A stretch of 44,376 nucleotides of DNA, from contig JAFUJQ010000012.1 of the NCBI GenBank assembly GCA_017473705.1, positions 1 through 44,376 of the forward strand, in the 5' to 3' direction. A model generated the notes under the pieces. It made no database searches, was not told where the DNA came from, and saw nothing but the letters and a program-made list of their open reading frames with translations. Source of the DNA: Bacteroidales bacterium. GTDB lineage: Bacteria; Bacteroidota; Bacteroidia; Bacteroidales; UBA932. Below are positions 564 through 41,525 of this stretch, one piece after another; the stretch's first letter is position 1; each line of letters opens with the position of its first letter. Both the position numbers and the translations under genes were made by a program.

Positions 564-2795
564 TCAATGAGCAAGCCAGCTCAAAATTGTTTCCCGCAGA
601 GTATCCATGTCCAGTACGCCATAGGCAAATCCCTTTCGAACAAGCTCTTCGGGCAGGTACTCGTCGTACTTATCAAACAGTGGAAGTTCCTTGGGATATA
701 CCAGCTCCAGGGGATCGATGGGTTTTTGTATCTCATCCCGGACAATTCGGTAGAAATCTTCTTCGGATACCTTCATGGTAAACTGCATGTAGTAGGGCCT
801 TGCTGAGTCAAAGTTCTTAAGTCCCAATCGGTCACCACATTTGATCTTCAGGAAACGTTCCATGGCGAGGAATGCGTAGGTGCCCACCCAGGGAAGCAGG
901 CACCACATATTGCCGCCCAGATTGATCAGAGGGGTATCCGCAGCACCGGAATTTTCGGCTGTATAACGTGCCTGATCCAGTCTGGCAACGGCGTTTTTCA
1001 TGAGATATGGATACTGCTTATCTTCTTTCAATACCTTGCGCATCCGTTGCAGGATCTTGGTGTGCAGATCTCCGGGACACTCGCCAAAGTAGGCAGGAAT
1101 GCTGCCCTTGACCTGCTCGCAGTATACCAGATGGCGTTTGTGATCCACATCCAGAACAACCCACACATGGCCGGCAATGGCCAGCTTTTCACCAACAGGA
1201 GGCGGCAGCACGACCGTACCCAGTTCCTGAGACTCGCTGCGAACGGTGTATTCTTCGCTTTCCACGAATACGCCGTAGAACTTGAAGGAGTTGACTACCC
1301 GTTCACCCGCAAGGCCTACGATCAGACCCCCTTGCTCCGTCTGCTGGATATGATCTATTTTGATCAGATGCCGTAGCAGGACCTTATAGTCTTCCTGGGA
1401 TATTCGGCGGAAGTAGTGAAGCCGCAGGATGCGGTCCGCCAGTGCCTTTGGGGATAGCTCTCCGCAGGATGCAAGGGTGGACATGGTCTGGTGGTACAGA
1501 AGGCTGTAAGGAAGACGGTCCAGTCGGGGCGGTTCGCACCATTTTTCCTCCAGATAAAGCTGTACCAGCGAAATGCCCTGCAGCAGCTTCCAGGGGATCG
1601 TAGCTGGGAGCATTGCCCTTGCTTCAGGTTCATCCTCACGCATTACGAACCACATCTCAGATGGCTGTCCTCGGCGTCCAGTGCGTCCCATGCGCTGAAG
1701 GAAGGAGGAAACCGTCCAGGGTGCGTCGATTTGGAATGCCCGCTCAAGCCGTCCAATATCGATTCCCAGTTCCAGTGTAGCCGTAGTTACGGTAGTCATA
1801 TACTGGGACTCATCCTTCATGACCTCCTCGGCAGTTTCCCGATAGGAGGCAGAGAGGTTGCCATGGTGAATAAGGAACCGATCACGCTCGTGCTGCAGCT
1901 CGCAGTATTGCCGCAGGGTAGTGGTGACGGTTTCGCATTCTTCCCGGGAGTTGACGAACACCAGGCATTTCTTACCGCGGGTATGCTCATAGATATATCC
2001 GATACCTGGATCTGCGTTCTTAGGAGCATCAGCAGTCTTTTCTTCCAGAACGGGAAGCGCATCGTTTATCTCTTTACCCTCAGCAGCCTGAACATCCTTC
2101 ACATAGAAGTGTTCCATGCTAATCCGCCATTTGCTTCCCTTAGCTTCAATCTTAGGGATGATAGTCTTGCGGCCAGTGCCCAGAGAGAGGAATTCTCCGG
2201 TACCCTCCGGATCACCGATAGTTGCGGAAAGGCCGATCCGGCGGGGATTGACACCTGCGATTCGGCTGAGCCGTTCGATCAGGCACAGAGTCTGTCCATC
2301 CCGGTCACCCCGGAGCAGGGAATGGACCTCGTCGATGACAACGAATCGGAGATCACCGAACAATTTTGGGATGGCAGCGTGCTTATGAAGCAGCATCGCC
2401 TCCAATGATTCCGGTGTGATCTGCAAAATGCCGGAGGGACGCTTCATCAGGCGGCTCTTGTGGCTCTGTGCCACATCTCCATGCCAATGCCAGACCGGGA
2501 TATCTGCTTCGGCACAAAGGTCGGTCAGACGAGAGAACTGATCGTTGATTAGCGCCTTCAGAGGCCCCACATAGATGCAGCCCACAGACGCAGGGGGATC
2601 CTCAGAGAATAGCGTGATGATTGGGAAGAAGGCAGCTTCTGTCTTGCCGGAGGCGGTGGACGCAGTCAGCAGAACATTTTCGTCGGTATTGAAAATGGCG
2701 TCCGCTGCAGCCACCTGGATTGCCCGGAGGTTATCCCAATGGTTTCGGTAGATATAGTCCTGTACAAAGGGTGCATAACGGTCAAACACACTCAT
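564..2795 (-). CDS. Lhr/BrxHI-like superfamily-2 DEAD/DEAH helicase
   Basis: This 743-residue protein is an ATP-dependent nucleic-acid helicase. Motif I (TASTASGKTEAA) lies near residues 44-55, motif II is DEVH at 155-158, motif III is the LSAT segment near 194, and motif VI (QRMGRTGRRG) lies near 370. The remaining roughly 350 residues match the large C-terminal extension of Lhr-type helicases rather than a minimal RecQ. It is the last gene of an operon with a P-loop ATPase and a TerB_N protein. The start has GAGGT 6 nt upstream, and the gap to the ATPase stop is only about 10 nt. In known biology, Lhr-like BrxHI pairs with BrxD ATPases in several BREX types, and TerB-linked clusters also combine these proteins. 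A defence or DNA-repair role here is inference. Confidence 0.9.
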   Translation of the reverse strand: MSVFDRYAPFVQDYIYRNHWDNLRAIQVAAADAIFNTDENVLLTASTASGKTEAAFFPIITLFSEDPPASVGCIYVGPLKALINDQFSRLTDLCAEADIPVWHWHGDVAQSHKSRLMKRPSGILQITPESLEAMLLHKHAAIPKLFGDLRFVVIDEVHSLLRGDRDGQTLCLIERLSRIAGVNPRRIGLSATIGDPEGTGEFLSLGTGRKTIIPKIEAKGSKWRISMEHFYVKDVQAAEGKEINDALPVLEEKTADAPKNADPGIGYIYEHTRGKKCLVFVNSREECETVTTTLRQYCELQHERDRFLIHHGNLSASYRETAEEVMKDESQYMTTVTTATLELGIDIGRLERAFQIDAPWTVSSFLQRMGRTGRRGQPSEMWFVMREDEPEARAMLPATIPWKLLQGISLVQLYLEEKWCEPPRLDRLPYSLLYHQTMSTLASCGELSPKALADRILRLHYFRRISQEDYKVLLRHLIKIDHIQQTEQGGLIVGLAGERVVNSFKFYGVFVESEEYTVRSESQELGTVVLPPPVGEKLAIAGHVWVVLDVDHKRHLVYCEQVKGSIPAYFGECPGDLHTKILQRMRKVLKEDKQYPYLMKNAVARLDQARYTAENSGAADTPLINLGGNMWCLLPWVGTYAFLAMERFLKIKCGDRLGLKNFDSARPYYMQFTMKVSEEDFYRIVRDEIQKPIDPLELVYPKELPLFDKYDEYLPEELVRKGFAYGVLDMDTLRETILSWLAH

Positions 2796-2805
2796 ATGCT
2801 ACCTC

Positions 2806-4119
2806 TTACAAATCAAACTCGGCAAATTGCTGATCGGTGGATTCTTCAATAACAGCGTTCTGTGCGTATGTGAAGGAATCACTGCCAAGAAGGGTACGAA
2901 CCTTCACCTTCGGATTCTGATAAACGATATCCAGCACCTCAATGAAGTCACGAATCACCTCACGGGGCGTGATATGGGTGTCGGCGCCAATGCGGCCAAA
3001 TTCGATCTCAATGAAATCAACCATGTCCTGCTGCGTGACGATCTGCTTGTACTCATAAAGTCCTGCGTGGATGTCTGCCAGCTTTTCAATGAGGATCAGC
3101 ATTTCCTCATTGGTCAGCGGCAGAAGACGAATCACAGGGGACAGGAGATCCTTGTGCTCTCCGGAGAAGTGGCCCTCGGCCAGTCTGGAGCGCAGTGCTT
3201 CATAACTGTATACACCCCGCCGGGGATCCTCCATGCACAGAGGTGTGCCGCAGAGAATAAAGCCCAGGTGCTGCGCTTTGCCCTGCATGGCATCATTGTA
3301 CATGGTCAGAATCTTTTCGTAGTTATACTGTCGGGTGATGGCATTGGGGATCTTGTAGATATTCACCAGTTCATCAATGAGGACCAGCATACCGCTGTAT
3401 CCTGCCTGCTTTAGAAACGCAGCGAAGATTTTGAGGTACTCATACCAGTCATCGTCTGTGATGACGATATTCACCCCCAGCTCCTGCCTTGCTTCGGTCT
3501 TGGTGTTGTATTCGCCCCGGAACCATTTGAGGACCTTAGCCTTGGTCTCATCGTCACCGGAAATGTGAGCCTTGTAGTAGAGGGTCAGCAGCCTTGCAAA
3601 GTCAAAGCCATGAACCATTTCGTTAAGAGAGTAAATGACTGCGGAAATCTTCTTCTCAACCAGCGGAGCAAGGCCAGGATCGTTCATGCTCAGTCCGGAA
3701 GAAATCATGACCTCCTGCTGGACGTTATTGATCCACCGATCCAGAATCAGGGACAATGCACCGCCTTCGGGCTTGGTCTTGGTGGACATATTGCGGATCA
3801 GTTCCTTGTAAGTGGCAAGACCCTGACCACGGGTTCCCTGCAAACGCCGCTCCGGGGACAGATCCGCATCCACAACAACAAAATTCTTCGCCATAACATA
3901 GTTGCGGATAGTCTGAAGCAGAAAGCTCTTGCCGCTGCCGTACTTACCCACGATAAAGCGAAAAGAGGCACCGCCGTCAGCGATAATCTCTACATCCCGC
4001 AACAGGGCATCGATTTCTGCAGTACGGCCCACGGTAACATATTGCAGACCTACCCGGGGTACAACGCCGCCTTTTAAGGAATTGATCAGGGTCTGGGAGA
4101 TTCGTCTTGGAATTTTCAT
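2806..4119 (-). CDS. BrxD/DUF2791-like P-loop ATPase
   Basis: The protein has 437 residues. Walker A (GKYGSGKS) is at 58-65, preceded by VGRTAEIDALL. Walker B is GMLVLIDE, with D247 and E248. The arrangement and length match the BREX-type ATP-binding family (BrxD, DUF2791), whose members act with an Lhr-like helicase. The ATG overlaps the TerB_N stop as ATGA, so the two are translationally coupled. The helicase begins about 10 nt after this stop. PglZ, PglX and BrxL, the hallmarks of complete BREX systems, are absent from the window, so this is a stand-alone three-gene module rather than an annotated BREX locus. The inferred role is an ATPase that loads or controls the helicase on DNA. Confidence 0.88.
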   Translation of the reverse strand: MKIPRRISQTLINSLKGGVVPRVGLQYVTVGRTAEIDALLRDVEIIADGGASFRFIVGKYGSGKSFLLQTIRNYVMAKNFVVVDADLSPERRLQGTRGQGLATYKELIRNMSTKTKPEGGALSLILDRWINNVQQEVMISSGLSMNDPGLAPLVEKKISAVIYSLNEMVHGFDFARLLTLYYKAHISGDDETKAKVLKWFRGEYNTKTEARQELGVNIVITDDDWYEYLKIFAAFLKQAGYSGMLVLIDELVNIYKIPNAITRQYNYEKILTMYNDAMQGKAQHLGFILCGTPLCMEDPRRGVYSYEALRSRLAEGHFSGEHKDLLSPVIRLLPLTNEEMLILIEKLADIHAGLYEYKQIVTQQDMVDFIEIEFGRIGADTHITPREVIRDFIEVLDIVYQNPKVKVRTLLGSDSFTYAQNAVIEESTDQQFAEFDL

Positions 4120-11282: not shown

Positions 11283-11311
11283 TTGACAAAGCCAGAATTC
11301 GGTATTATAAT
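11283..11311 (+). promoter_or_regulatory. Fully consensus sigma-A promoter of the attenuated cargo operon
   Basis: TTGACA (11283-11288), a spacer of exactly 17 nt and TATAAT (11306-11311) match the consensus at all 12 positions. Transcription should start near 11318, about 165 nt before the first enzyme gene, leaving a structured leader with a terminator. Confidence 0.93.
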
Positions 11312-11343
11312 AACTCCAGAATTTTGGAAAGGAGTTGAGCTTC

Positions 11344-11409
11344 ATGATGACCGTTTATATCATTTGTTACGATATTCGAAGCTTTGCTCCTTTGACTCAG
11401 GGCAGATAA
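11344..11409 (+). CDS. Leader peptide of the attenuator (21 residues)
   Basis: A 21-codon ORF (MMTVYIICYDIRSF...) with AAAGGAG 9 nt upstream sits between a consensus promoter and a terminator. The codons for IRSFA (11373-11387) overlap the GAAGCTTTGC segment that can pair with the 5' arm of the terminator. A translated short ORF placed like this is the hallmark of ribosome-mediated attenuation. The peptide itself has no other recognised function. Confidence 0.7.
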   Translation: MMTVYIICYDIRSFAPLTQGR

Positions 11410-11470
11410 TTGCCCGAGGAATAGGTATGTACTATGGCGCAAGCTTCATGCTTGCGCCATTTTTCGTTTT
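11378..11470 (+). terminator. Transcription attenuator: antiterminator and intrinsic terminator
   Basis: The terminator is a perfect 11-bp stem (11434-11444 with 11450-11460) followed by TTTTCGTTTT. A competing antiterminator pairs GAAGCTTTGC in the leader ORF (11378-11387) with GCAAGCTTC (11439-11447), with one bulged T. A small stem just past the leader stop (11401-11404 with 11411-11414) may act as pause or spacer. Ribosome position on the leader ORF would decide which structure forms. Confidence 0.75.
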
Positions 11471-11482
11471 CTGGAGGACACT

Positions 11483-12121
11483 ATATTAGATAATAAAGGT
11501 TTTGATTTATGGGCTGACGGTTATGACCGCAGTGTGGATATTAGTGATGAAGATGATACTTACCCCTTTGCCGGATATAAGAAGGTCTTGGCTGGCATTT
11601 ATGAGGCAATCCGGTTAGGGCAGGGGAAGAGGGTGCTGGACATCGGGTTTGGTACCGGTGTTCTGGCTGGCATGCTCTACAAAAATGGGTATGAGATTAC
11701 CGGAATTGATTTCTCCGAGAGAATGATCCAAATTGCTCAGGAAAAGATGCCTTCTGCCAGACTGATTCATCATGATTTTTCCAAGGGCCTGCCGGCCGAG
11801 CTTGCTGATTCAAAATATGACGCAATTATCTGTACCTATGCGATTCATCATCTGGATGATGCTGCTAAGACAAAATTTCTGAAGGAACTCCAGACTCATT
11901 TGAACATAGCAGGTAAAATCTACATCGGCGATGTGGCATTTTGTACCCGTGAGGAGCTGAACGCTTGCCGGGAGAGCTGTGGAGATGAATGGGATGGAGA
12001 CGAGTTCTATATTGTTGCGGAGGAAGTATCCAGGGAAATTGTGGGAGTACAGTTTGAGAAGGTTTCTTACTGTGCTGGCATACTTTCATTGGATGGTGCA
12101 GTATCTATCGGTAAGGAGTAA
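11483..12121 (+). CDS. Class I SAM-dependent methyltransferase
   Basis: The Rossmann-fold methyltransferase has motif I VLDIGFGTGVLAG, an acidic residue after the second strand (ITGIDFS), and a motif IV-like IICTYAIHHL. The N-terminal signature LDNKGFDLWADGYDRS, typical of this Firmicutes family, is encoded in frame upstream of the first standard start codon (GTG at 11534). It begins right after GGAGG (11473-11477) with an ATA codon at 11483 in the place of ATG. The annotated start is therefore the probable non-canonical ATA; the conservative start is 11534. Substrate is unknown. It is first gene of the attenuator-controlled operon, 3 nt before the next gene. Confidence 0.85.
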   Translation: MLDNKGFDLWADGYDRSVDISDEDDTYPFAGYKKVLAGIYEAIRLGQGKRVLDIGFGTGVLAGMLYKNGYEITGIDFSERMIQIAQEKMPSARLIHHDFSKGLPAELADSKYDAIICTYAIHHLDDAAKTKFLKELQTHLNIAGKIYIGDVAFCTREELNACRESCGDEWDGDEFYIVAEEVSREIVGVQFEKVSYCAGILSLDGAVSIGKE

Positions 12122-12124
12122 TAA

Positions 12125-12904
12125 ATGGAAGTGACATTTGTAAATCCCGGCATCGACTACATGATTGAAAAGATCATGGCTTTTCAGACCGAGGATGAAT
12201 CGGCTTTCTGGTCGGAACCTTTATATCATTTCTATCCCCAACTTGACAAAGACTATGCCGCAAGCCTGTCTTTCCCCGAAAGGAAAGAATACATTGAACG
12301 AACTATGCGGGCTGTTTATATTGATTTGGAAGATACGATAAATGAAAAAGCGGCATCGTATTCCCGTCATTGGGCTGTATGCAAAGAGCAGATCACCGCA
12401 GCACTGTCAGATGCTTTTAGTGTGGATTGTGCAAGCCTGTTCAATGACATACGGTGTAATGTAAGTCTGAATCCTATTGAACCTCGGTTCTTGAAAGAAC
12501 GATATTATGACACCTTCTATTTGAACAGTGAGAGAGGTGCCATCGGTGGCGGGATTCACGAGATCGTGCATTTTGTTTGGTTCTATGTATGGAACCGGCT
12601 GTTTGAGGATAACTACGATGAATACGAGCGCCCATCTATGAAATGGATTCTTAGCGAAATGGTGGTCGAATCCGTGATGAAAGATGAACGGCTCAGTTCC
12701 ATCAACCCCTACTTCCCCAGGGAACACGGTGGTTGCATCTACCCCTATTTCTTCGATATGGTGGTGGACGGCGAACTGATTTTGGACACGTTGGATTCTA
12801 TGTACAGAAGTCAAAGCATCGAGGATTTCATGCGAAATAGCTACACCTATTGCTTGGAGCATGAAGCAGAGATTAGAAAACATATCTACAAATCAGAACA
12901 ATGA
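12125..12904 (+). CDS. HExxH-motif hypothetical protein
   Basis: This 259-residue soluble protein is not recognised as a named family. A GGGIHEIVHF segment (H145, E146, H149) with SEMVVES about 30 residues later (E178/E182) has the layout of a gluzincin zinc site, so metal binding and peptidase-like chemistry are plausible. There is no signal peptide, so it would act in the cytoplasm. It starts 3 nt after the methyltransferase and precedes a GNAT by 10 nt, so it is cotranscribed. Peptidase activity is inference from the motif alone. Confidence 0.7.
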   Translation: MEVTFVNPGIDYMIEKIMAFQTEDESAFWSEPLYHFYPQLDKDYAASLSFPERKEYIERTMRAVYIDLEDTINEKAASYSRHWAVCKEQITAALSDAFSVDCASLFNDIRCNVSLNPIEPRFLKERYYDTFYLNSERGAIGGGIHEIVHFVWFYVWNRLFEDNYDEYERPSMKWILSEMVVESVMKDERLSSINPYFPREHGGCIYPYFFDMVVDGELILDTLDSMYRSQSIEDFMRNSYTYCLEHEAEIRKHIYKSEQ

Positions 12905-12914
12905 GGTGACAAAG

Positions 12915-13352
12915 ATGGATTATACAATTATCCCTTATGACAGAAAATACCGGGATGACATGATCTTCATGGTACTGGAAGCCAAGGACGCTCTTGATCG
13001 AGTTCCCAGACTGAACGAGGATCTGCTGGATGTTCAGAAGAATTATCTGGATACCGGCGATATGTTCTGGTTGGCAATCGACGAGCATGACCGTGTGGTC
13101 GGCTGCATCGGCTATAACTCCATTCCCGGCACCGCCGAAGTGAAGCTCCACCGGCTCTATATCAAGGCCGCAAGGAAGCACCAGGGCATCGGCACACGCC
13201 TGCTCCACACCGTCGAGCTGTATCTGCGAGAGCAAGGCAAAACCGCAGCTCATGTCCACCTGGGTGGCAAGGAATATTTTGAATCCCGTAGCTTCTACCC
13301 GAAGCATGGGTATAAGGAGTATGCGCCCAGTATGATGAAGAAAGAACTGTAA
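12915..13352 (+). CDS. GNAT-family N-acetyltransferase
   Basis: This 145-residue single-domain GNAT fold has the acetyl-CoA pyrophosphate loop ARKHQGIGTRLL (motif A, Q/RxxGxG/A type) after the LHRLYI strand, and ends with the typical FYPKHGYKEY strand. GAGGTG lies upstream of the ATG at 12915; an upstream ATG at 12861 lies inside the preceding gene and is not used. Substrate is not predictable. It is the third gene of the operon. Confidence 0.9.
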   Translation: MDYTIIPYDRKYRDDMIFMVLEAKDALDRVPRLNEDLLDVQKNYLDTGDMFWLAIDEHDRVVGCIGYNSIPGTAEVKLHRLYIKAARKHQGIGTRLLHTVELYLREQGKTAAHVHLGGKEYFESRSFYPKHGYKEYAPSMMKKEL

Positions 13353-13377: not shown

Positions 13378-14013
13378 ATGAGTAGATTTGCAGTGATCCT
13401 ATATCAGAACTTCTCGTTACAAGAAATCACTTGCCTCACTTCTGCGTTGACGGTGTGGTTTGACGAAAAGATTGACTTCATTGCAAGTGAAAATAAGGAA
13501 TACTTTAGCGAAGAAGGACTGCGTGTTACCCCTACAAAAGTAATGGCAGATGCCACTATCACCGACTATGACTGTGTGATTTTGCCGGGTACGATCAATC
13601 CGCTTCCTGCATTATATGATGAAAGACTGATCGGCTTCTTGAAAAACGGAATCAATACCAATGTCGTATTTGCAGCAATTTCATCATCTCCGTTACTGTT
13701 AGCAAAAGCAGGCGTATTGAAGGGCAAGAAGTTCACCGCCGGATTCTTCATGCAGATGGCAGAAGTGTTTTCGTTTATCGAAAAAGAGAACTTCACCCAC
13801 GAAGGGATTGTTTGCGACGGGAATGTTATTACCGGTATCGGTATGTTCTTCCGGGAGTTTGCAGAAGCAGTCTTGCAGAGATTTGAATACGATATTGGAA
13901 ATAATTTTATGCGCGACAAACCCGAAGATTATACAACAGAAGAACTTACATTCTATTGGTCGGAAGAAGATTACCATGAGTTTTTGGAAGAGCTGAAAGA
14001 ATATCAGTCCTAA
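13378..14013 (+). CDS. DJ-1/PfpI-like protein with Ser at the nucleophile position
   Basis: The 211-residue protein has the DJ-1/PfpI flavodoxin-like fold: an initial FAVILYQNFSLQE strand-loop, a DCVILPGT strand, and an elbow FAAISSSPLLLAKAGVLKGKK. In the family the elbow reads AICxGP with a catalytic Cys; here position 102 is Ser, so glyoxalase/protease-type thiol chemistry is unlikely. AGGAGG lies directly before the ATG. It is cotranscribed with neighbouring detoxification-type genes. It may be a binding or regulatory paralogue; function is uncertain. Confidence 0.8.
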   Translation: MSRFAVILYQNFSLQEITCLTSALTVWFDEKIDFIASENKEYFSEEGLRVTPTKVMADATITDYDCVILPGTINPLPALYDERLIGFLKNGINTNVVFAAISSSPLLLAKAGVLKGKKFTAGFFMQMAEVFSFIEKENFTHEGIVCDGNVITGIGMFFREFAEAVLQRFEYDIGNNFMRDKPEDYTTEELTFYWSEEDYHEFLEELKEYQS

Positions 14014-14040: not shown

Positions 14041-14409
14041 ATGGATATTCAAAAGTTTTGGGATGCTGTTCTGCGGCAGGATGCAGATGCCATCCGTGAA
14101 TACTTCCATCCCGACGCATGGGTGAACTGGCATAACACCAACGAGCATTTCACCGTGGAGGAATTTATCCGTGCGAACTGCGAATACCCCGGCGAATGGG
14201 ACGGCGAAGTAGAGCAGATCATTACCACCGATACGCATATCATTACTGCCACTCATGTGTACAACAAGGACGGAAGTATGTCCTGCCACGCCACAACCTT
14301 CATCCGGGTGATGGATGGCAAGATCGCATCCGTTGAGGAATACTGGGGCGATGACGGCCCAGCTCCCCAATGGCGGCAAGATAAGGATATTGGTACGACA
14401 ATCCGATAA
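14041..14409 (+). CDS. NTF2/SnoaL-like protein
   Basis: This 122-residue protein has the NTF2-like cone fold: an N-terminal helix (FWDAVLRQDADAIREYF), HPDAWVNWHNTNEHFTVEEF, and long beta strands ending in FIRVMDGKIASVEEYWGDDG. Members bind small hydrophobic ligands or act as isomerases and cyclases, but many have no assigned function. AGGAGG lies 6-7 nt before the ATG. It lies between a PfpI-like and a Nudix gene in the same operon. Confidence 0.85.
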   Translation: MDIQKFWDAVLRQDADAIREYFHPDAWVNWHNTNEHFTVEEFIRANCEYPGEWDGEVEQIITTDTHIITATHVYNKDGSMSCHATTFIRVMDGKIASVEEYWGDDGPAPQWRQDKDIGTTIR

Positions 14410-14430: not shown

Positions 14431-14940
14431 ATGCGGCTATTATTTGAGATCGACACAAAAGATTATGACCCTAACGGCAAAGCTTTTGTTCGCCCGTCCG
14501 TTCGGGGTATCATCATCCGGAATGGTAAGGTTGCCATGGTACACAGTCTGAAATATGACTATTACAAATTCCCTGGCGGCGGCATTGAGGCCGGTGAGAG
14601 TCTGGAGCAGGCACTTCTCAGAGAAGTGGTGGAGGAGTCTGGATTACAAGTCATTACCAATTCCATCCGGGAATACGGTCTTGTACATCGGGTGCAAAAG
14701 GGCCAGAAAGAAGCTATGTTCATTCAGGACAACTACTATTTTCTCTGTGAGGTCGAGCCAACAATCCAGGCGCAGCATTTGGATGATTACGAAGCAGAGG
14801 AACACTTCACACTTGAATTTGTTGATCCAATCCATGCCATTCTTACCAATCGTGAAGTAGATCATGGCCCCAAAGATCAAATCATGCTGGAACGAGAAGC
14901 AAGGGTGCTGGAATTGCTGATGGAGGAAGGGATTATATAA
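14431..14940 (+). CDS. Nudix hydrolase
   Basis: The protein has 169 residues. A complete Nudix box runs from G50 to L72 (GX5EX7REUXEEXGU; E56, R64, E65, E68, E69, G71), so magnesium-dependent hydrolysis of a nucleoside-diphosphate-linked substrate is expected. The substrate may be a damaged nucleotide, NDP-sugar or dinucleotide. Its last codons overlap the proposed start of the following GNAT gene. It is the sixth gene of the attenuator-controlled operon. Confidence 0.93.
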   Translation: MRLLFEIDTKDYDPNGKAFVRPSVRGIIIRNGKVAMVHSLKYDYYKFPGGGIEAGESLEQALLREVVEESGLQVITNSIREYGLVHRVQKGQKEAMFIQDNYYFLCEVEPTIQAQHLDDYEAEEHFTLEFVDPIHAILTNREVDHGPKDQIMLEREARVLELLMEEGII

Positions 14941-15467
14941 TTTTTACTGAAACAGATCGTTTGCTCCTGCGCAATGTGTCGCCGAAGGATGCAGACATTA
15001 TGTACGACTATCGTAACAACGAGATCTGCGCCATGTATCAGCGGGGCCAGACTAAGGACTATGATGGCATCGTTGCCTTAGTGGAGCGCCGCAAGGACGA
15101 TGTGATGTCCGTGGATGCTCCATACATGGTGGCGGTTGCGCTGAAGGACACCAACGAGATGGTGGGGGAGATTGTGGTCATGCCAAAGGATGGCACAATC
15201 AGCCTAGGATACACCTTTTCCTACAAGCACCACCGGAAAGGCTATGCCTTTGAAGCGCTGACGGCCCTTATCAATATGCTCCATGAGCGATACCCGGAAT
15301 GGGACTTCATCAGTTTCACCGAAGCGGAGAACGAGCCGAGTATGGCTCTGCTGAAAAAACTGGGATACAAGGACATGGGCTATATCCCATCCATGGAATC
15401 TCAGGTGTTTGGAAAGTGGACAACCCCGGCAACGGAAGCAGAGATCGTGCAGGCAACAGGGAAGTAA
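14937..15467 (+). CDS. GNAT-family N-acetyltransferase, RimJ-like
   Basis: The GNAT domain has a FTETDRLLLRNVSPKDADIM start, motif A in SYKHHRKGYAFEAL, and the NEPSMALLKKLGYKDMG strand. The usual family start (I-F-T-E-T-D-R-L) is encoded from 14937, where the first codon is ATA overlapping the Nudix stop, with GGAGG at 14922-14926. The first standard codon is TTG at 14961, which would delete the first beta strand. I therefore give the ATA position and note 14961 as the conservative alternative. RimJ-like enzymes acetylate ribosomal protein N termini, small amines or drugs; the substrate here is unknown. Confidence 0.85.
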   Translation: MIFTETDRLLLRNVSPKDADIMYDYRNNEICAMYQRGQTKDYDGIVALVERRKDDVMSVDAPYMVAVALKDTNEMVGEIVVMPKDGTISLGYTFSYKHHRKGYAFEALTALINMLHERYPEWDFISFTEAENEPSMALLKKLGYKDMGYIPSMESQVFGKWTTPATEAEIVQATGK

Positions 15468-15480
15468 AAGGAGCGGTCAA

Positions 15481-16398
15481 ATGCACTTTGATAGCGATAT
15501 CTATTATGGAAATATCGTCAAAGGTGATCTTCGTGGCGCAATCACCTACATAAAGCAGTTCCCGGAACAAATCAACCTCTACAATCGATTCATGGATGTA
15601 TTCGAGCATGAGCAGTACATAACCTATGAAGTTGATTCAGAGCTGAACAACATTTTGACTGCCTATCAGCAGTATTACCGGGATGTATTTTACCTCTGCA
15701 TGGAAAAAGACCAGGCTGCGAGTAAACTGAGAGCGCGTCTGGCGGCTTTGTTAGGAATTACAGACGATGGCTTGGAGCTGTGCGATTTGGAGCAGAACCA
15801 GCTTGTGAGGCTCTTTATGAGCCGGGGGCTGCACTTCCTTGGCGGCAAGACAAGCGGTTACTATGGCCCCTATATCTGGCGAACGACGGAAACGGTATCT
15901 TACGATGTGGAACTGCCTGATGGCATTCAGAGCTATACAGTAAAACTCATTGATGGTTTTATTACCCGGAGCTGGATCGATTACCTTTCCTTTGGTGAGA
16001 TCGGTCCCGGCGGATGGGCGGACGGTGACGGTACCATCAACTGCGTGAAATCTGCCTGGGACTTTGAAAGTGAGAGATTCCGTGTGTCGCTTCTGAAACA
16101 CGAAGCCCAACACGCAAGAGATCTGGAAACGGACAAGGATATGTCCTCCGAGGATCTGGAGTATCGGGCGAAGCTAGTGGAGCTGATCTATTCCAGTGAG
16201 AGGAATTTGCTGCAAGCATTTGCCAAGGAAGCCGATAACTCCGATAAAAGCAACGGTCATGCAATGGCGGCATTTCGAATCATGAAAGGTTTTTCCGATG
16301 CACTTGGCGCGGACCGGATCCATCCTGCTGCAATCACAGTTGAACAGATACGTACTGTAGCACGATACCTGTTTGACAATGCTAGAGAAGGAAAATGA
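15481..16398 (+). CDS. Hypothetical protein with HEAQH metal-site motif
   Basis: This 305-residue protein is not recognised. KHEAQHARDLE at 206-216 supplies an HExxH pair (H207, E208, H211) with E216 and E225 nearby as possible third ligands. A WRTTETVSYDVELPDG beta region comes before it. AAGGAG is 7 nt before the ATG at 15481. There is no signal peptide. Together with the 12125 gene it is the second unassigned HExxH protein in one operon, though the two sequences do not look related outside the motif. Zinc-dependent hydrolysis is an inference. Confidence 0.7.
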   Translation: MHFDSDIYYGNIVKGDLRGAITYIKQFPEQINLYNRFMDVFEHEQYITYEVDSELNNILTAYQQYYRDVFYLCMEKDQAASKLRARLAALLGITDDGLELCDLEQNQLVRLFMSRGLHFLGGKTSGYYGPYIWRTTETVSYDVELPDGIQSYTVKLIDGFITRSWIDYLSFGEIGPGGWADGDGTINCVKSAWDFESERFRVSLLKHEAQHARDLETDKDMSSEDLEYRAKLVELIYSSERNLLQAFAKEADNSDKSNGHAMAAFRIMKGFSDALGADRIHPAAITVEQIRTVARYLFDNAREGK

Positions 16399-16400
16399 AA

Positions 16401-16901
16401 ATGGAACAACTTGAATTATACATTCCAAAGCTGGAGGATCTGTGGTTCTATCAGAAGATGATGTCTGACCCGGAAACCATGTCCTACAACGATCCCTGGG
16501 GCGGTTGTATCGACTACCCGGATGAGGTCTTGCCCGACTGGCATGCGAAATGGGTAGGAAAGGAGCCGGAGCGATTCTACGCCTACATTAAGCGCAGCTC
16601 GGACGGAGCATGGATCGGTGATGTGAACTTCCACTATACCCCGGATAAGGACTGGTGGGACATGGGTATCGTGATCTATGCACCCTATCGTGGTGAAGGC
16701 TATGCTGTTCCCTCGCTGAAGCTGTTGCTGGATCATGCATTCCGTGTCTGCGGTATTTCCCGGCTCCATAACAACTTTGAAACTACCCGGGACGCTGCCT
16801 GGGCTATTCACCGCAAGGTAGGATTTAAGGAAATGGGTGTAGAGGATGGCATCCTCCAACTTATGCTTACGAAAGAGGATTATCTGAGCAATAATCCCTG
16901 A
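16401..16901 (+). CDS. GNAT-family N-acetyltransferase
   Basis: The GNAT protein is about 166 residues, with an acetyl-CoA loop YAPYRGEGYAVPSLKLLL and a late NNFETTRDAAWAIHRKVGF strand-helix. It begins inside the previous stop region. ATG at 16401 has AGAAGG at a proper distance, while ATG at 16395 is too close to it. The Trp-rich central part (DKDWWDMGIVIY) is typical of a subset of aminoglycoside-like GNATs, but substrate assignment is not possible. It is the ninth gene of the operon. Confidence 0.9.
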   Translation: MEQLELYIPKLEDLWFYQKMMSDPETMSYNDPWGGCIDYPDEVLPDWHAKWVGKEPERFYAYIKRSSDGAWIGDVNFHYTPDKDWWDMGIVIYAPYRGEGYAVPSLKLLLDHAFRVCGISRLHNNFETTRDAAWAIHRKVGFKEMGVEDGILQLMLTKEDYLSNNP

Positions 16902-16918: not shown

Positions 16919-17353
16919 ATGGTTATCGGAATTTTTGGTGAAAGCTGCACCGGAAAATCCACTCTTGCTGAGAAGATTGCCTCCAGCTTTCCCTCCGAAG
17001 AATTTACCGGCAAGGACTATCTGCGCCTTGCTAAGAATGAGAACATTGCCAAGGTGATGTTCCAGAACATGCTGAATGCCGCCGTAACCGGCGAGAACAT
17101 CATTTATGTTATCTCTGAGAAAGAGCATCTTTCGCTGCTGCCGGAGGGGGCCCTGCGTATCCTTGTAACGGCAGATTTGGAACTGATCAAGTCCCGGTTT
17201 GCCCAGAGAATGCGTGGCAACCTGCCTGCTCCTGTGGCAGCCATGCTGGAAAAGAAGCACGGCTGCTTCGATGCAGAGTCCCATGACATTCATGTTGTGT
17301 CCGGGGAAACTGACTTGGATGCAGTCGTTACACAAATCAATGCGAGGCGATAA
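16919..17353 (+). CDS. Small P-loop kinase-like protein
   Basis: This 144-residue P-loop protein has Walker A GESCTGKST (G7-T15) at the very N terminus. The layout of a cytidylate-kinase-like or AAA nucleotide kinase follows: a short LID-like region (SRFAQRMRGNLP) with basic residues and an EKEHLSLL segment. It is shorter than most nucleoside-monophosphate kinases, so the acceptor is unclear. Small kinases next to acetyltransferases and methyltransferases can be antibiotic phosphotransferases, but nothing here identifies the substrate. It is cotranscribed, 3 nt before the next gene. Confidence 0.75.
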   Translation: MVIGIFGESCTGKSTLAEKIASSFPSEEFTGKDYLRLAKNENIAKVMFQNMLNAAVTGENIIYVISEKEHLSLLPEGALRILVTADLELIKSRFAQRMRGNLPAPVAAMLEKKHGCFDAESHDIHVVSGETDLDAVVTQINARR

Positions 17354-17356
17354 GAG

Positions 17357-17845
17357 ATGCTGGAACTGATTGCGATTTCGGAAGTGAATGACGCATTGGC
17401 AGAGATGGTTGCTTTCTTCCGAGTAGAGCTGCGATCCTACAAAGGTATCGTATCAAAGCCATATGTGGATGCAGGCCGCGAAGAAATGGAAGAGTATCTT
17501 GCGGCTGGTTTCCCGGTATTTGCCGGCTTGGTAGATGGTCAGTATGCCGGTTATGTGGTTTGCCGTGTTGATAACGAGGTCGTGTGGGTGGAATCCATCT
17601 TTGTGAAAGAGGAGTACCGCCGTCACGGTGTTGCTTCCGCCCTGCACAGTAAAGCAGAGGAAATTGCTGCTTCTTATGGTGAGGAAACCGTCTATAACTA
17701 CGTTCACCCCAATAATCATCGAATGATCGAGTTTCTGCGCAAGCGGGGCTATACCGTACTGAACCTAATTGAAATCCGGAAGCCCTACAAAGGCGAAAAT
17801 CTGACGCAGGCAATTACTGTCGGTAATCATGAATTTGATTATTGA
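17357..17845 (+). CDS. GNAT-family N-acetyltransferase
   Basis: This 162-residue GNAT has a clear acetyl-CoA binding motif EEYRRHGVASALHSKAEE after the WVESIFVK strand, and the NYVHPNNHRMIEFLRKRGY segment that closes the fold. It is the last gene of the packed operon; the following 150 bases contain no terminator that I can see but hold a new promoter for the XRE gene. Substrate unknown. Confidence 0.92.
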   Translation: MLELIAISEVNDALAEMVAFFRVELRSYKGIVSKPYVDAGREEMEEYLAAGFPVFAGLVDGQYAGYVVCRVDNEVVWVESIFVKEEYRRHGVASALHSKAEEIAASYGEETVYNYVHPNNHRMIEFLRKRGYTVLNLIEIRKPYKGENLTQAITVGNHEFDY

Positions 17846-17857
17846 GGGGGAAACAAT

Positions 17858-17998
17858 GTGATCAATTCTGCCAGCAAAACGGTTGTGAGCGATCTTAATG
17901 GACCGTACAAGAAATCAGTTTACGCAACTGATGGTTTCCATTCGCCAATCAAAATGCACATAATGCTTTCTGGACATACACATTCAGCCGTGGTATGA
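17858..17998 (+). CDS. Possible small ORF or gene remnant
   Basis: A GTG-started 46-codon reading frame follows GAGGGGG at good distance, but shows no domain and overlaps the promoter of the next gene. It may be a leader ORF, a remnant or chance. Reported at low confidence because the ribosome binding site is good. Confidence 0.25.
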   Translation: MINSASKTVVSDLNGPYKKSVYATDGFHSPIKMHIMLSGHTHSAVV

Positions 17999-29683: not shown

Positions 29684-29712
29684 TTGACAACGAATATTAC
29701 AGGGTGTATAAT
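29684..29712 (+). promoter_or_regulatory. Fully consensus sigma-A promoter of the second attenuator
   Basis: TTGACA (29684-29689), exactly 17 nt and TATAAT (29707-29712): all 12 positions match, the same design as the promoter at 11283-11311. Confidence 0.93.
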
Positions 29713-29742
29713 CGCATAAAATCACAGGAAGGAGAACTGACA

Positions 29743-29841
29743 ATGTTCCGTTATTGCTTCAACGCTAATGATAACAAGTCCGGTAATGTTATGCCTAAGC
29801 ATACAGTCGGGCTTACATTGTCATACTCTTTTTTAGGATAA
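29743..29841 (+). CDS. Leader peptide of the second attenuator (32 residues)
   Basis: A 32-codon ORF (MFRYCFNANDNKSGNV...) with AAGGAG 8 nt upstream lies between a consensus promoter and a terminator. Codons 23-26 contain GGCTTACATTG (29810-29820), which can pair with the terminator 5' arm. The role is to report ribosome progress rather than to make a functional protein; this is inferred from layout. Confidence 0.72.
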   Translation: MFRYCFNANDNKSGNVMPKHTVGLTLSYSFLG

Positions 29842-29912
29842 TCTCGAAGCTAGGATTATAAAAAAGATGCAGTGCAAGCCGAAATGAAAGTTTCTGCTTG
29901 CACTGCTTTTTT
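29810..29912 (+). terminator. Transcription attenuator: antiterminator and intrinsic terminator
   Basis: The terminator is a perfect 11-bp stem (29869-29879 with 29896-29906) followed by TTTTTTA. A competing pairing joins 29810-29820 in the leader ORF with 29870-29880 (10 of 11 positions pair, one of them G-U). A further stem uses the T-run at 29828-29835 with the A-run near 29858-29866. It ends 18 nt before the GNAT gene. Confidence 0.75.
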
Positions 29913-39527: not shown

Positions 39528-41525
39528 ATGGCAAATCGATTGTACAGAGAAAAATCGCCGTATCTGCTGCAGCATGGAGAGAATCCCGTAGACTGGTACC
39601 CCTGGTGCGAAGAGGCGTTTCAAAAAGCAGAACAGGAAGATAAGCCTGTGTTCTTAAGTATTGGATATTCTACCTGCCATTGGTGTCATGTGATGGCTCA
39701 TGAATCTTTTGAGGATCAGGAAGTAGCTGAGATTCTGAATCGTGAATTTGTCAGCATTAAAGTTGACCGCGAAGAACGGCCTGATATTGATTCAGTGTAT
39801 ATGTCTGTATGCCAAGCGGTAACTGGCTCCGGCGGCTGGCCATTGACCATCATCATGACTCCACAGCAGAAACCATTCTTTGCTGGAACCTATTTTCCCA
39901 AGAAAGGGGCCTATGAGAAAATGGGTCTGACAGAACTGCTGGAGCGTGTGGCTTTTCTTTGGAAAGAAAACAGAGAAGATCTGATCAGGGCTGGCAATGA
40001 AATTACCGCTGCCATAAATCAGAGCGGCGCAGGCAGCGGACATGAACCAAATCGAAAGCTGGTGGAGCGGGCTGCTTCGCAGCTTGTTCGAATCTTCGAT
40101 GTGAAGTGGGGTGGATTTGGACAAGCGCCGAAATTCCCAACCCCGCACAATCTCCTGTTCCTGATGCGATATGCATCTACAATGCGGGAAAGAGGGATCA
40201 TGAAGATTGCACAGATCACGCTGGAAGATATGGCCAGAGGAGGCATTCACGATCACATTGGCGGTGGGTTCTCCCGGTATTCTACGGATGAAATGTGGTT
40301 GGTTCCACATTTTGAGAAGATGCTTTATGACAATGCATTACTGCTTATGGCCTATGTCAAAGCGTATCAGCACACCAAACGGGAGATGTTTGCTGATGTT
40401 GCCCATAGGACAGCACAATATATCTTGAGAGAACTGACCAGTCAAGAGGGCGGCTGTTACTGCGGTCAGGATGCAGATAGTGACGGTGTCGAAGGAAAAT
40501 ATTATGTGTTTACGCCCAATGAAGAGAAGCAGATTCTGGGGGAATCAGACGGAGAAGCATTCTGTAGGCTCTATAACATTACGGATGCAGGCAACTTTGA
40601 AGGTAAAAGCATCCCCAACAGGATCGGGGCCATGGCGGACGGCTGGGAGCTAAATGATCCCAGGCTGAAGAAGCTATATGACTATCGACTGAATCGTACA
40701 AGCCTCCATAAGGATGATAAGATCCTCCTTTCCTGGAATGCTTGGGCATTGATTGGTCTGGTACAGGCTGGTGCGGCCCTGTCTGAGAGAAAATATCTGG
40801 ATGCAGCCATTCGAATCCATCAGTTCATCGAGACAAAAATGACAGATGCAAATGATCGGTTGTATCTGCGATACCGGGATGGAGAAGCGGCGAATGCAGG
40901 CCAGCTAGATGATTACGCCATTTATGCGCTTGCGCTTCTGGAATTGTACCGTAATACTTTCGAAACAGAGTATCTGGAAAAAGCTATTCATCTGGCAGAG
41001 AAGATGACAGAGCTATTTGAGGATAAAGATCACGGCGGCTATTTCATGACTGCTTCTGACAGTGAACTTCTGATCGCCCGCCCCAAGGAAACCTATGACG
41101 GTGCCATTCCCTCCGGGAATTCGGTTGCAGGAATGGTTCTGCAACGGCTGTCTTATCTTACTGGAGAAAGGAAGTGGCAGGAAGCCGCACAGCGGCAGAT
41201 GCAGTTTCTTGCAGATTCCATCTCTGATTATCCTACGAGCAGTTGCTTTGGGGTGTTGTCGATGATGGATGCCCTGTATCCATGCCGGGAATTAGTATGT
41301 GCTACCAAATATGGTATTCCCAGCGATCTGAATGAATGGCTGAAGGGACATCCAGCGGATGATCTTCAGATCCTGTTAAAAACCTCAGAGAATGCGGAAC
41401 TACTTTCTCGCTGTGCACCGTTTACCGCAGATTATCCTGTTCCAGATCAAGGAGTAACATATTACCTCTGTGAGGACGGTGTCTGTAAATCCCCTGTAGA
41501 TGATTTTTCACAATTGAATCTTTGA
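39528..41525 (+). CDS. YyaL-like thioredoxin-domain protein (DUF255)
   Basis: This 665-residue protein has an N-terminal DUF255 thioredoxin-like domain (about 1-165): [17 protein letters not shown] start, STCHWCHVM redox-type motif near residue 49, and [12 protein letters not shown] long (alpha/alpha)6-barrel part (about 200-640) follows, related to N-acylglucosamine 2-epimerase folds, with [20 protein letters not shown]. This is the SSP411/YyaL family; biochemical function is unresolved. AAGGAGG lies inside the ligase gene end. It completes the ku-ligase operon. Confidence 0.92.

Follow-up and report, generated by a model that had tools for sequence, protein, structure and literature searches.

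The vmlR leader of Bacillus subtilis contains an anti-antiterminator, an antiterminator and a terminator, and it acts through ribosomes that stall at a three-codon uORF. It additionally has a hairpin that sequesters a Shine-Dalgarno sequence (PMC9226507). The cplR leader, which is clostridial, carries a three-codon uORF within a 5' hairpin (PMC10201436).

We analyzed a 44,376-nucleotide stretch of DNA, referred to as the window (positions 1-44376, forward strand, of contig JAFUJQ010000012.1, assembly GCA_017473705.1, Bacteroidales bacterium, GTDB UBA932). It contains a leader in front of eleven genes. We think it likely (a probability of roughly 0.78) that this leader is a ribosome-mediated transcription attenuator, one of a family of leaders that precede many resistance-like operons in a group of genomes around an Oscillospiraceae gut metagenome-assembled genome (MAG). 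Comparison of the family members shows their anatomy, covariation of helices, alternative pairing and conservation of the early codons.

Anatomy of the leader in the window

The features of the leader are listed below. L007 is a related locus with a leader of the same kind.

11283-11311, + strand: sigma-70 type promoter (TTGACA at 11283-11288, 17-nt spacer, TATAAT at 11306-11311; 12/12 matches)
11328-11343, + strand: arm 1, the leader Shine-Dalgarno sequence and 5' half of the anti-antiterminator (partner 11378-11393)
11344-11409, + strand: leader ORF of 21 codons (ATG at 11344, TAA at 11407-11409), product MMTVYIICYDIRSFAPLTQGR
11378-11393, + strand: arm 2, with two alternative partners, arm 1 (anti-antiterminator) and the 5' arm plus loop of the terminator at 11436-11447 (antiterminator)
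11396-11418, + strand: small additional hairpin at the stop codon of the leader; L007 has no counterpart of its 3' half
11434-11464, + strand: intrinsic terminator (11 bp, 11434-11444 with 11450-11460, 5-nt loop, TTTTT); its 5' arm is arm 3

An earlier, sequence-only reading of this DNA had described a consensus promoter, a 21-codon leader ORF with a ribosome binding site and an 11-bp terminator. All three are present where it placed them. The promoter is the sole 12/12 site among 19 promoter-like sites in 12.7 kb scanned, a total that is not above that in shuffled sequence (mean 21.3). AAAGGAG lies upstream of the ORF start, and a second in-frame ATG at 11347 would give an ORF of 20 codons. 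The 163-nt leader has a predicted fold of -57.6 kcal/mol versus a shuffled mean of -39.0 (z -5.4; none of 200 dinucleotide shuffles was as good).

We found that the alternative pairing proposed in that reading, 11378-11387 with 11439-11447, exists. It is extended by 11389-11390 with 11436-11437, for a predicted -15.4 kcal/mol. Taken alone, this antiterminator is moderately unusual (52/2000 shuffles were as good, and 28/1000 in a second test). The reading had lacked a third helix, the anti-antiterminator of arm 1 with 11378-11393 (-21.8 kcal/mol; 3/2000 shuffles were as good). Because arm 1 also pairs with 11378-11393, there are three mutually exclusive helices, and in these predicted folds the leader is a full anti-antiterminator / antiterminator / terminator switch.

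We searched for the same architecture in 1.08 Mb of DNA, the window plus 80 loci, on both strands. The whole architecture was found at 7 places; L007 had the top score and the window was second. When the condition of a downstream gene was dropped, there were 13 places, the best of which outscored L007, and five shuffles gave 0, 0, 1, 0 and 2. One further place was the leader of a metK-like gene (L021 665-828, - strand), which is probably a SAM riboswitch; the scan is therefore not specific to leader peptides. Another candidate leader attenuator, with the peptide MFEMRISSVEIVTEYSMRPSAYEYHQKAV, was picked in two Butyrivibrio contigs (L058 934-1095 and L061 2483-2645).

A family of leaders around an Oscillospiraceae MAG

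L007 is the closest of the 80 loci kept from a scan of genome contigs for the methyltransferase encoded by the first gene behind the leader (gene 1); its methyltransferase is 73% identical to that of the window. It comes from the Oscillospiraceae MAG RGIG4187 (G545), from roe deer colon. A complete promoter-leader-terminator unit lies upstream of this methyltransferase gene. The two leaders are identical at 10/12 positions of the promoter hexamers, 10/13 of arm 1, 8/13 of arm 2, and 9/11 and 10/11 of the terminator arms; ORF sequence outside arm 2 is identical at 13/33 and 7/20 positions. There are two A-U to G-C double changes between arm 1 and arm 2. The Shine-Dalgarno sequence of L007 is weak, and its pairing of 5' UTR and ORF is not above shuffles (1050/2000 as good; 392/1000 in a second test).

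We built a covariance model, R1, from the window and L007. When it was run over the 80 loci and the window with a threshold of E up to 5, just two places exceeded 24 bits, the window leader and L007. Likewise, none of the 39 methyltransferase loci L008-L046 had this leader when up to 260 bases upstream were read by eye (119-151 bases only for L010, L012, L015 and L025; L047-L086 lay outside that reading). In the genome of L007, R1 found a second copy of the leader, before a gene 84% identical to window gene 10. Across 199 genomes around G545, at E up to 0.001, it found 16 places in 14 genomes. On reading, 12 of these (10 genomes) had the full anatomy, three were terminators only (L101, L104 and L106, discarded) and one was another leader type (L105, also discarded). 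A second model, R2, built from 13 members, found 36 places in 24 of 197 genomes of G545's order. Of these places, 2 were already known members, 1 (L120) was new to the family, 1 (L149) was of the second leader type and 32 lacked the anatomy. R2 also found a further leader copy on the fetched stretches, in L110.

Covariance searches and reading together gave 15 members in 12 genomes with the same anatomy. Some members are closely related (L007/L092 and L099/L103), so the member counts are not independent. A promoter matching 9-12 of 12 positions is located 29-40 nt before the leader ATG in 14/14 members tested. One leader copy (L092 1619-1501, - strand; L094) has an ORF without a stop codon before the terminator that continues in frame into the kinase-like gene.

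These features bear on the possibility that the leader is a riboswitch or a protein-bound attenuator and that the short ORF is incidental. The alternative helices would suit any ligand, and the L092 ORF has no stop codon before the terminator. However, an ATG follows arm 1 in 15/15 members and heads an ORF of 19-29 codons in 14 (that of L092 runs on), and in 11/14 members tested the ORF ends 19-30 nt ahead of the terminator. Codons 2-3 are conserved and the loop of the anti-antiterminator is not, and inspection by eye showed no conserved core beyond the arms. Rfam searches, which covered 3 of the 15 leaders (window, L007 and L120), gave no match at the gathering score in the window or L120, and at E up to 5 the window and L007 leaders matched only unrelated families, all below their cut-offs. 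We consider a ligand-bound leader highly improbable.

Comparative tests of the helices

We compared the helices in an alignment of 13 members. For the anti-antiterminator and the terminator together, 89.8% of cells were paired, 15/26 pairs had changed on both sides versus 7.2 in shuffles, and the covariation score was 0.40 versus 0.25 in shuffles. None of 500 shuffles matched the paired cells, the doubly changed pairs or the covariation score. Separately, the anti-antiterminator had 82.3% of cells paired and both-side changes in 9/15 pairs, and the terminator had all counted cells paired and both-side changes in 6/11 pairs. The model used to find the members also served to fit this alignment, which favors the two helices of that model; the antiterminator lies outside it. 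We therefore used tests that need no alignment.

Arms paired better with partners from their own leader than with permuted partners: only 59/20,000 permutations were as good for arm 1 with arm 2, and 48/20,000 for arm 2 with arm 3 (13 members). Dinucleotide shuffles of the region from leader ATG to terminator, combined over 14 members by Fisher's method, gave p 2e-5 for the antiterminator and p 7e-13 for the anti-antiterminator. In single members the antiterminator is often unremarkable (421/1000 shuffles as good in L100, 401/1000 in L107).

On fixed alignment columns, the antiterminator was 76.9% paired (11/500 shuffles as good) with a covariation score reached in 12/500, and its doubly changed pairs and doubly changed cells were matched in 84/500 and 181/500 shuffles. 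The column-wise covariation of the antiterminator is weak. The check for compensatory changes suggested by the sequence-only reading was thus positive for the anti-antiterminator and terminator, and for both alternative pairings in the own-partner test, but weak for the antiterminator by columns. Overall, comparison supports a mutually exclusive anti-antiterminator and antiterminator that share an arm.

Ribosome masking and the leader codons

We predicted the folds of transcripts cut before the 3' terminator arm, with a ribosome masked codon by codon. An antiterminator was counted whenever arm 3 paired anywhere in the ORF region. A ribosome masked at codons 1-2 gave the antiterminator in 14/14 members, and one at codon 3 in 13/14. 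In the window, the productive stalls were codons 1-4 of 12 tried (7 in a second test); arm 1 re-pairs at codon 5. The first codons are not the sole productive place in every member, because a stall at codon 8 still yielded the antiterminator in 6/14 members and the unmasked cut transcript preferred it at equilibrium in 7/14.

Full-length folds had the terminator in 14/14 members. With the full transcript, the window terminator prevailed at 22/22 masked ribosome positions; in L007 the antiterminator formed at 2/21. The order of folding must be assumed, because the terminator wins in the full transcript and half of the unmasked cut transcripts choose the antiterminator.

We found that the early codons are conserved. 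Among 14 members, codons 2-3 are CTG in 6/14 and AAT in 7/14, respectively, and codons 4-12 are not conserved. None of 10,000 codon shuffles reached the observed value.

An amino-acid attenuator of the trp/his type, in which a shortage of charged tRNA would stall the ribosome at regulatory leader codons, uses the same architecture. The leaders also have some candidate codons for it: Tyr at codon 4 in the window (from the second ATG) and in L007, and Asn at codon 3 in 7/14. Against this, there is no run of a single regulatory codon in the leaders, codons 4-12 vary, the controlled gene families are not biosynthetic, and the window has no T-box or other Rfam match. An amino-acid attenuator seems to us very improbable here.

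A further alternative is arrest of a specific nascent peptide, as in ErmCL or ErmDL, where the peptide senses one drug in the exit tunnel. S-[FL]-A-P or a close form occurs in arm 2 of most of the 15 peptides, and R-x-R was seen by eye in one (L095). However, no arrest motif is conserved in the 15, and the S-[FL]-A-P letters fall on the very RNA arm whose pairing with the Shine-Dalgarno arm is required. In L108, arm 2 is retained but lies in another frame, which indicates that RNA rather than peptide is selected there. The gap-free alignment of the window and L007 ORFs over 20 codons has differences of 12/14/10 by codon position, with no sign of peptide selection. A stall at these letters in the window would also come too late, as arm 1 re-pairs by codon 5. 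We regard peptide arrest as improbable.

The central proposal of the sequence-only reading, that the choice between termination and readthrough depends on where the ribosome sits on the leader, is supported by comparison of the 15 members, if unevenly. Sensing probably takes place at the first few codons and not through the leader peptide as such. The masking and codon data fit a leader that senses ribosomes held at the start codon or immediately behind it, as published for vmlR and discussed for cplR (PMC9226507, PMC10201436, PMC12121999). Leader identities as a T-box, a SAM riboswitch, a trp-type leader or an Erm-type leader were set aside on the evidence given above.

The eleven-gene operon of the window

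The leader had been proposed to head an operon of eleven genes. The spacing agrees with this: eleven co-directional genes are separated by ten gaps of -4 to 27 nt and followed by a gap of 166 nt, in which there is a 10/12 promoter at 17971. Three weak terminator-like sites (5-7 pairs, 3 G-C each) lie within the gene string on the same strand. The genes are as follows.

11483-12121, + strand: gene 1, class I SAM-dependent methyltransferase (Pfam Methyltransf_25, E 4e-19)
12125-12904, + strand: gene 2, 259 aa, with the letters HEIVHF (HExxH-like, by eye); no match in Pfam or NCBIfam
12915-13352, + strand: gene 3, GNAT acetyltransferase (Pfam Acetyltransf_7, E 5e-12)
13378-14013, + strand: gene 4, DJ-1/PfpI family (Pfam, E 2e-20)
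14041-14409, + strand: gene 5, SnoaL-like (Pfam, E 5e-9)
14431-14940, + strand: gene 6, NUDIX hydrolase (Pfam, E 1e-14)
14961-15467, + strand: gene 7, GNAT acetyltransferase (86% identical relative behind the L119 copy of the leader)
15481-16398, + strand: gene 8, 305 aa; no match in Pfam or NCBIfam
16395-16901, + strand: gene 9, GNAT acetyltransferase (Pfam, E 1e-16)
16919-17353, + strand: gene 10, small kinase-like protein with a P-loop, GESCTGKST (leader copies L094 and L110 precede relatives of 84% identity); no Pfam match, and no PDB match at E up to 1
17357-17845, + strand: gene 11, GNAT acetyltransferase, last before the 166-nt gap

Gene 1 has ATA at its in-frame start (11483), where L007 has ATG. 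The ATA may be a rare start codon, a change or an assembly error. None of the eleven genes reached a curated NCBIfam cut-off among the matches listed (for gene 1, the best 25 of 58).

Genes behind the other leaders

We found seven kinds of first gene behind the leaders: ABC half-transporters, MccF-like S66 peptidases, GNAT acetyltransferases, methyltransferases, P-loop kinase-like proteins, a histidine phosphatase and a metallophosphoesterase. They are distributed as follows.

ABC half-transporter first: L095, L097, L098, L102, the second copy in L110, and L120 (L120 by eye)
S66 peptidase first: L099, L103 and L108 (L103 via a start near-identical to that of L099)
Methyltransferase first: window and L007
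Kinase-like protein first: L092
GNAT first: L100
Histidine phosphatase first: L096
Metallophosphoesterase first: L107

Six of the 15 members precede ABC half-transporter genes, and the pair was seen in five. The S66 protein behind L099 matched structures of the MccC/MccF family in the PDB (best E 9e-85). In the L096 operon, the first gene is followed by APH-family, HD-domain and methyltransferase genes and a relative of gene 10; in the L107 operon, it is followed by a relative of gene 7, an APH-family gene and an HD-domain gene (the last via a similar start). Thus, three of the eleven window genes (1, 7 and 10) have relatives, 73-86% identical, behind their own leader copies. For the other eight, the 13 stretches fetched (12 carrying this leader, 1 of the second type) contained no close relative at E up to 1e-10. 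The sequence-only reading had called the controlled genes uncharacterized small enzymes; this description is better amended to one sample of a larger pool of genes that share the leader.

By family match, the MccF-like, APH-family, ABC half-transporter and GNAT genes are candidate resistance genes. None of the proteins given to NCBIfam passed a curated cut-off among the matches listed (for four proteins, the best 25).

A response of the leader to drugs is plausible by analogy, because half-transporter pairs and MccF-like peptidases lie behind sister leaders and the logic is that of vmlR, bmrB and hflXr. The resemblance to Firmicutes attenuators noted in the sequence-only reading is borne out by these three systems (PMC9226507, PMC4191407, PMC6310831). 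The leader might instead be a general sensor of translation status that answers any slow initiation or early elongation, such as in cold, starvation or ppGpp accumulation, and not drugs in particular. A sensor of stalling at the start codon is inherently non-specific, and the NUDIX, DJ-1 and HD-domain genes could encode general stress enzymes. However, the leaders repeatedly precede half-transporter pairs and genes for MccF-like peptidases, APH-family proteins and acetyltransferases, a drug-handling set. We consider a general sensor unlikely, though clearly less so than the amino-acid, peptide-arrest or ligand-bound leaders. Stalling at the first codons would probably be caused by translation inhibitors, as in the analogous systems.

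Affinity of the contig

Several genes of the window have close relatives in the G545 group and none that we found in the genus to which the window is assigned. The window's MAG is 71% complete. Among 300 genomes of the assigned genus, relatives of the gene 1 methyltransferase (E up to 1e-30) and of genes 2 and 8 (1e-8) were found only in the window's own genome, as were methyltransferase relatives at 1e-40 among 247 genomes of the order. R1 gave no convincing match at E 0.01 in the 299 other genomes of the genus; its one 23-bit match (L088) sits at the end of another gene and was discarded on reading.

By DNA similarity, the leader had no homologue besides the window itself in 101 relatives of the window's genome, and two matches of E ~0.009 in other genomes were 27-nt pieces. 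No similarity to the leader was found in plasmids (E up to 0.1), nor was the leader found in viral contigs with one terminator pattern. Relatives of gene 10 were found neither in plasmids nor in viral contigs, those of the methyltransferase were not found in viral contigs, and a 2.8-kb stretch with the leader and first genes had no match in phages.

The gene at 39528-41525 of the window has a 74% identical relative in G615, which belongs to the G545 group and carries the leader. The gene is missing in 10/10 sampled genomes of the assigned genus, and also in the other 10 of 11 genomes sampled from the G545 group. This pattern of gene relatives is suggestive only. The 44-kb contig may have been misbinned into the assigned genus or transferred from the G545 group, and might not belong to that genus.

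At 564-4119 of the window, there are BREX-like neighbors, a DEAD/DEAH helicase gene adjoining one for a BrxC/BrxD-type ATPase (576 bits).

A second type of leader

The window also contains a second attenuator-like leader, at 29684-29912. It has a TTGACA-17-TATAAT promoter, a strong terminator and a fold z of -6.2. Its ORF (29743-29841) has 32 codons and the product MFRYCFNANDNKSGNVMPKHTVGLTLSYSFLG, and the ORF stretch GGGCTTACATTGTC pairs with the terminator 5' arm. This leader heads a GNAT gene and a GNAT-methyltransferase fusion. L105 and L149 (G545:C31) are similar leaders of the second type, with a GL[TA]LS stretch, before a methyltransferase-like gene.

In addition, four loci in three genomes of G545's order (L124, L126, L132 and L145) have similar-looking long structured RNAs that end in a terminator. 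These four RNAs had no Rfam match at the gathering score.

Discussion

Translation of the leader, stalling of ribosomes on it, its inducer and the benefit of the enzymes are inferred. By default, an unhindered ribosome would load early, complete the leader of about 20 codons and depart, or none would load. Arm 1, with the Shine-Dalgarno sequence, would then pair with arm 2, the terminator would form, and RNA polymerase would halt near 11465. Under induction, a ribosome held up at one of the first two to four codons would hide arm 1. Arm 2 would capture the 5' arm of the terminator as it emerges, no terminator would form, and the eleven genes would be transcribed. The likeliest trigger would be a drug that stalls initiating or early-elongating ribosomes, of the lincosamide, pleuromutilin, streptogramin A, tetracycline or phenicol class.

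The family as a whole could be a cis-acting RNA regulon, in which copies of one stalled-ribosome attenuator have come to stand before seven or more kinds of resistance-like gene. The operons would share no protein regulator, and genes would move from one leader-headed operon to another. An uncultured gut lineage would then answer translation inhibition by one distributed program. We give this broader notion even odds. If it is true, the eleven-gene operon of the window is an array assembled from a shared pool behind one leader. The presence of one leader before many unrelated genes marks them as a candidate translation-stress program of uncultured gut bacteria. Several genes behind the leaders are without known function, and searching with the leader offers a way to find new resistance or drug-modifying enzymes.

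The class of mechanism is already known, and the leader family described here is a new variant of it. Among the matches listed in our literature search, in which subscription papers were mostly outside the coverage, none dealt with this leader or with a leader-peptide attenuator shared by many Oscillospiraceae genes.

The closest likeness is to vmlR, in which an anti-antiterminator holds the start of the uORF, followed by an antiterminator and an intrinsic terminator, and a stall at the uORF start opens the operon. In contrast to the leaders here, with about 20 codons and many unrelated targets, the vmlR uORF as described has three codons (MIN) and one ABCF target (PMC9226507). The rli80 leader of hflXr in Listeria monocytogenes likewise has three mutually exclusive helices, a short ORF over the anti-antiterminator and transcription attenuation; its leader of 14 aa has an RLR arrest motif, whereas none is conserved here (PMC6310831). 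Upstream of bmrCD in B. subtilis, bmrB is a leader-peptide transcription attenuator before a half-transporter pair. It is longer, with the terminator inside its ORF, whereas the leader ORF here usually ends before the terminator (PMC4191407).

The cplR leader of Clostridioides difficile combines a terminator with an antiterminator and stalling of the start-codon type. Its terminator hairpin hides the gene's own ribosome-binding site, whereas the site of gene 1 is downstream of the terminator (PMC10201436). The toiL uORF of topAI-yjhQP in Escherichia coli senses several classes of drug, with stalls at the start codon included, but it is described as acting on translation and Rho-dependent termination, with no intrinsic terminator (PMC12121999). 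In these papers, drug-responsive leaders are treated gene by gene; here, one homologous leader stands before many unrelated genes.
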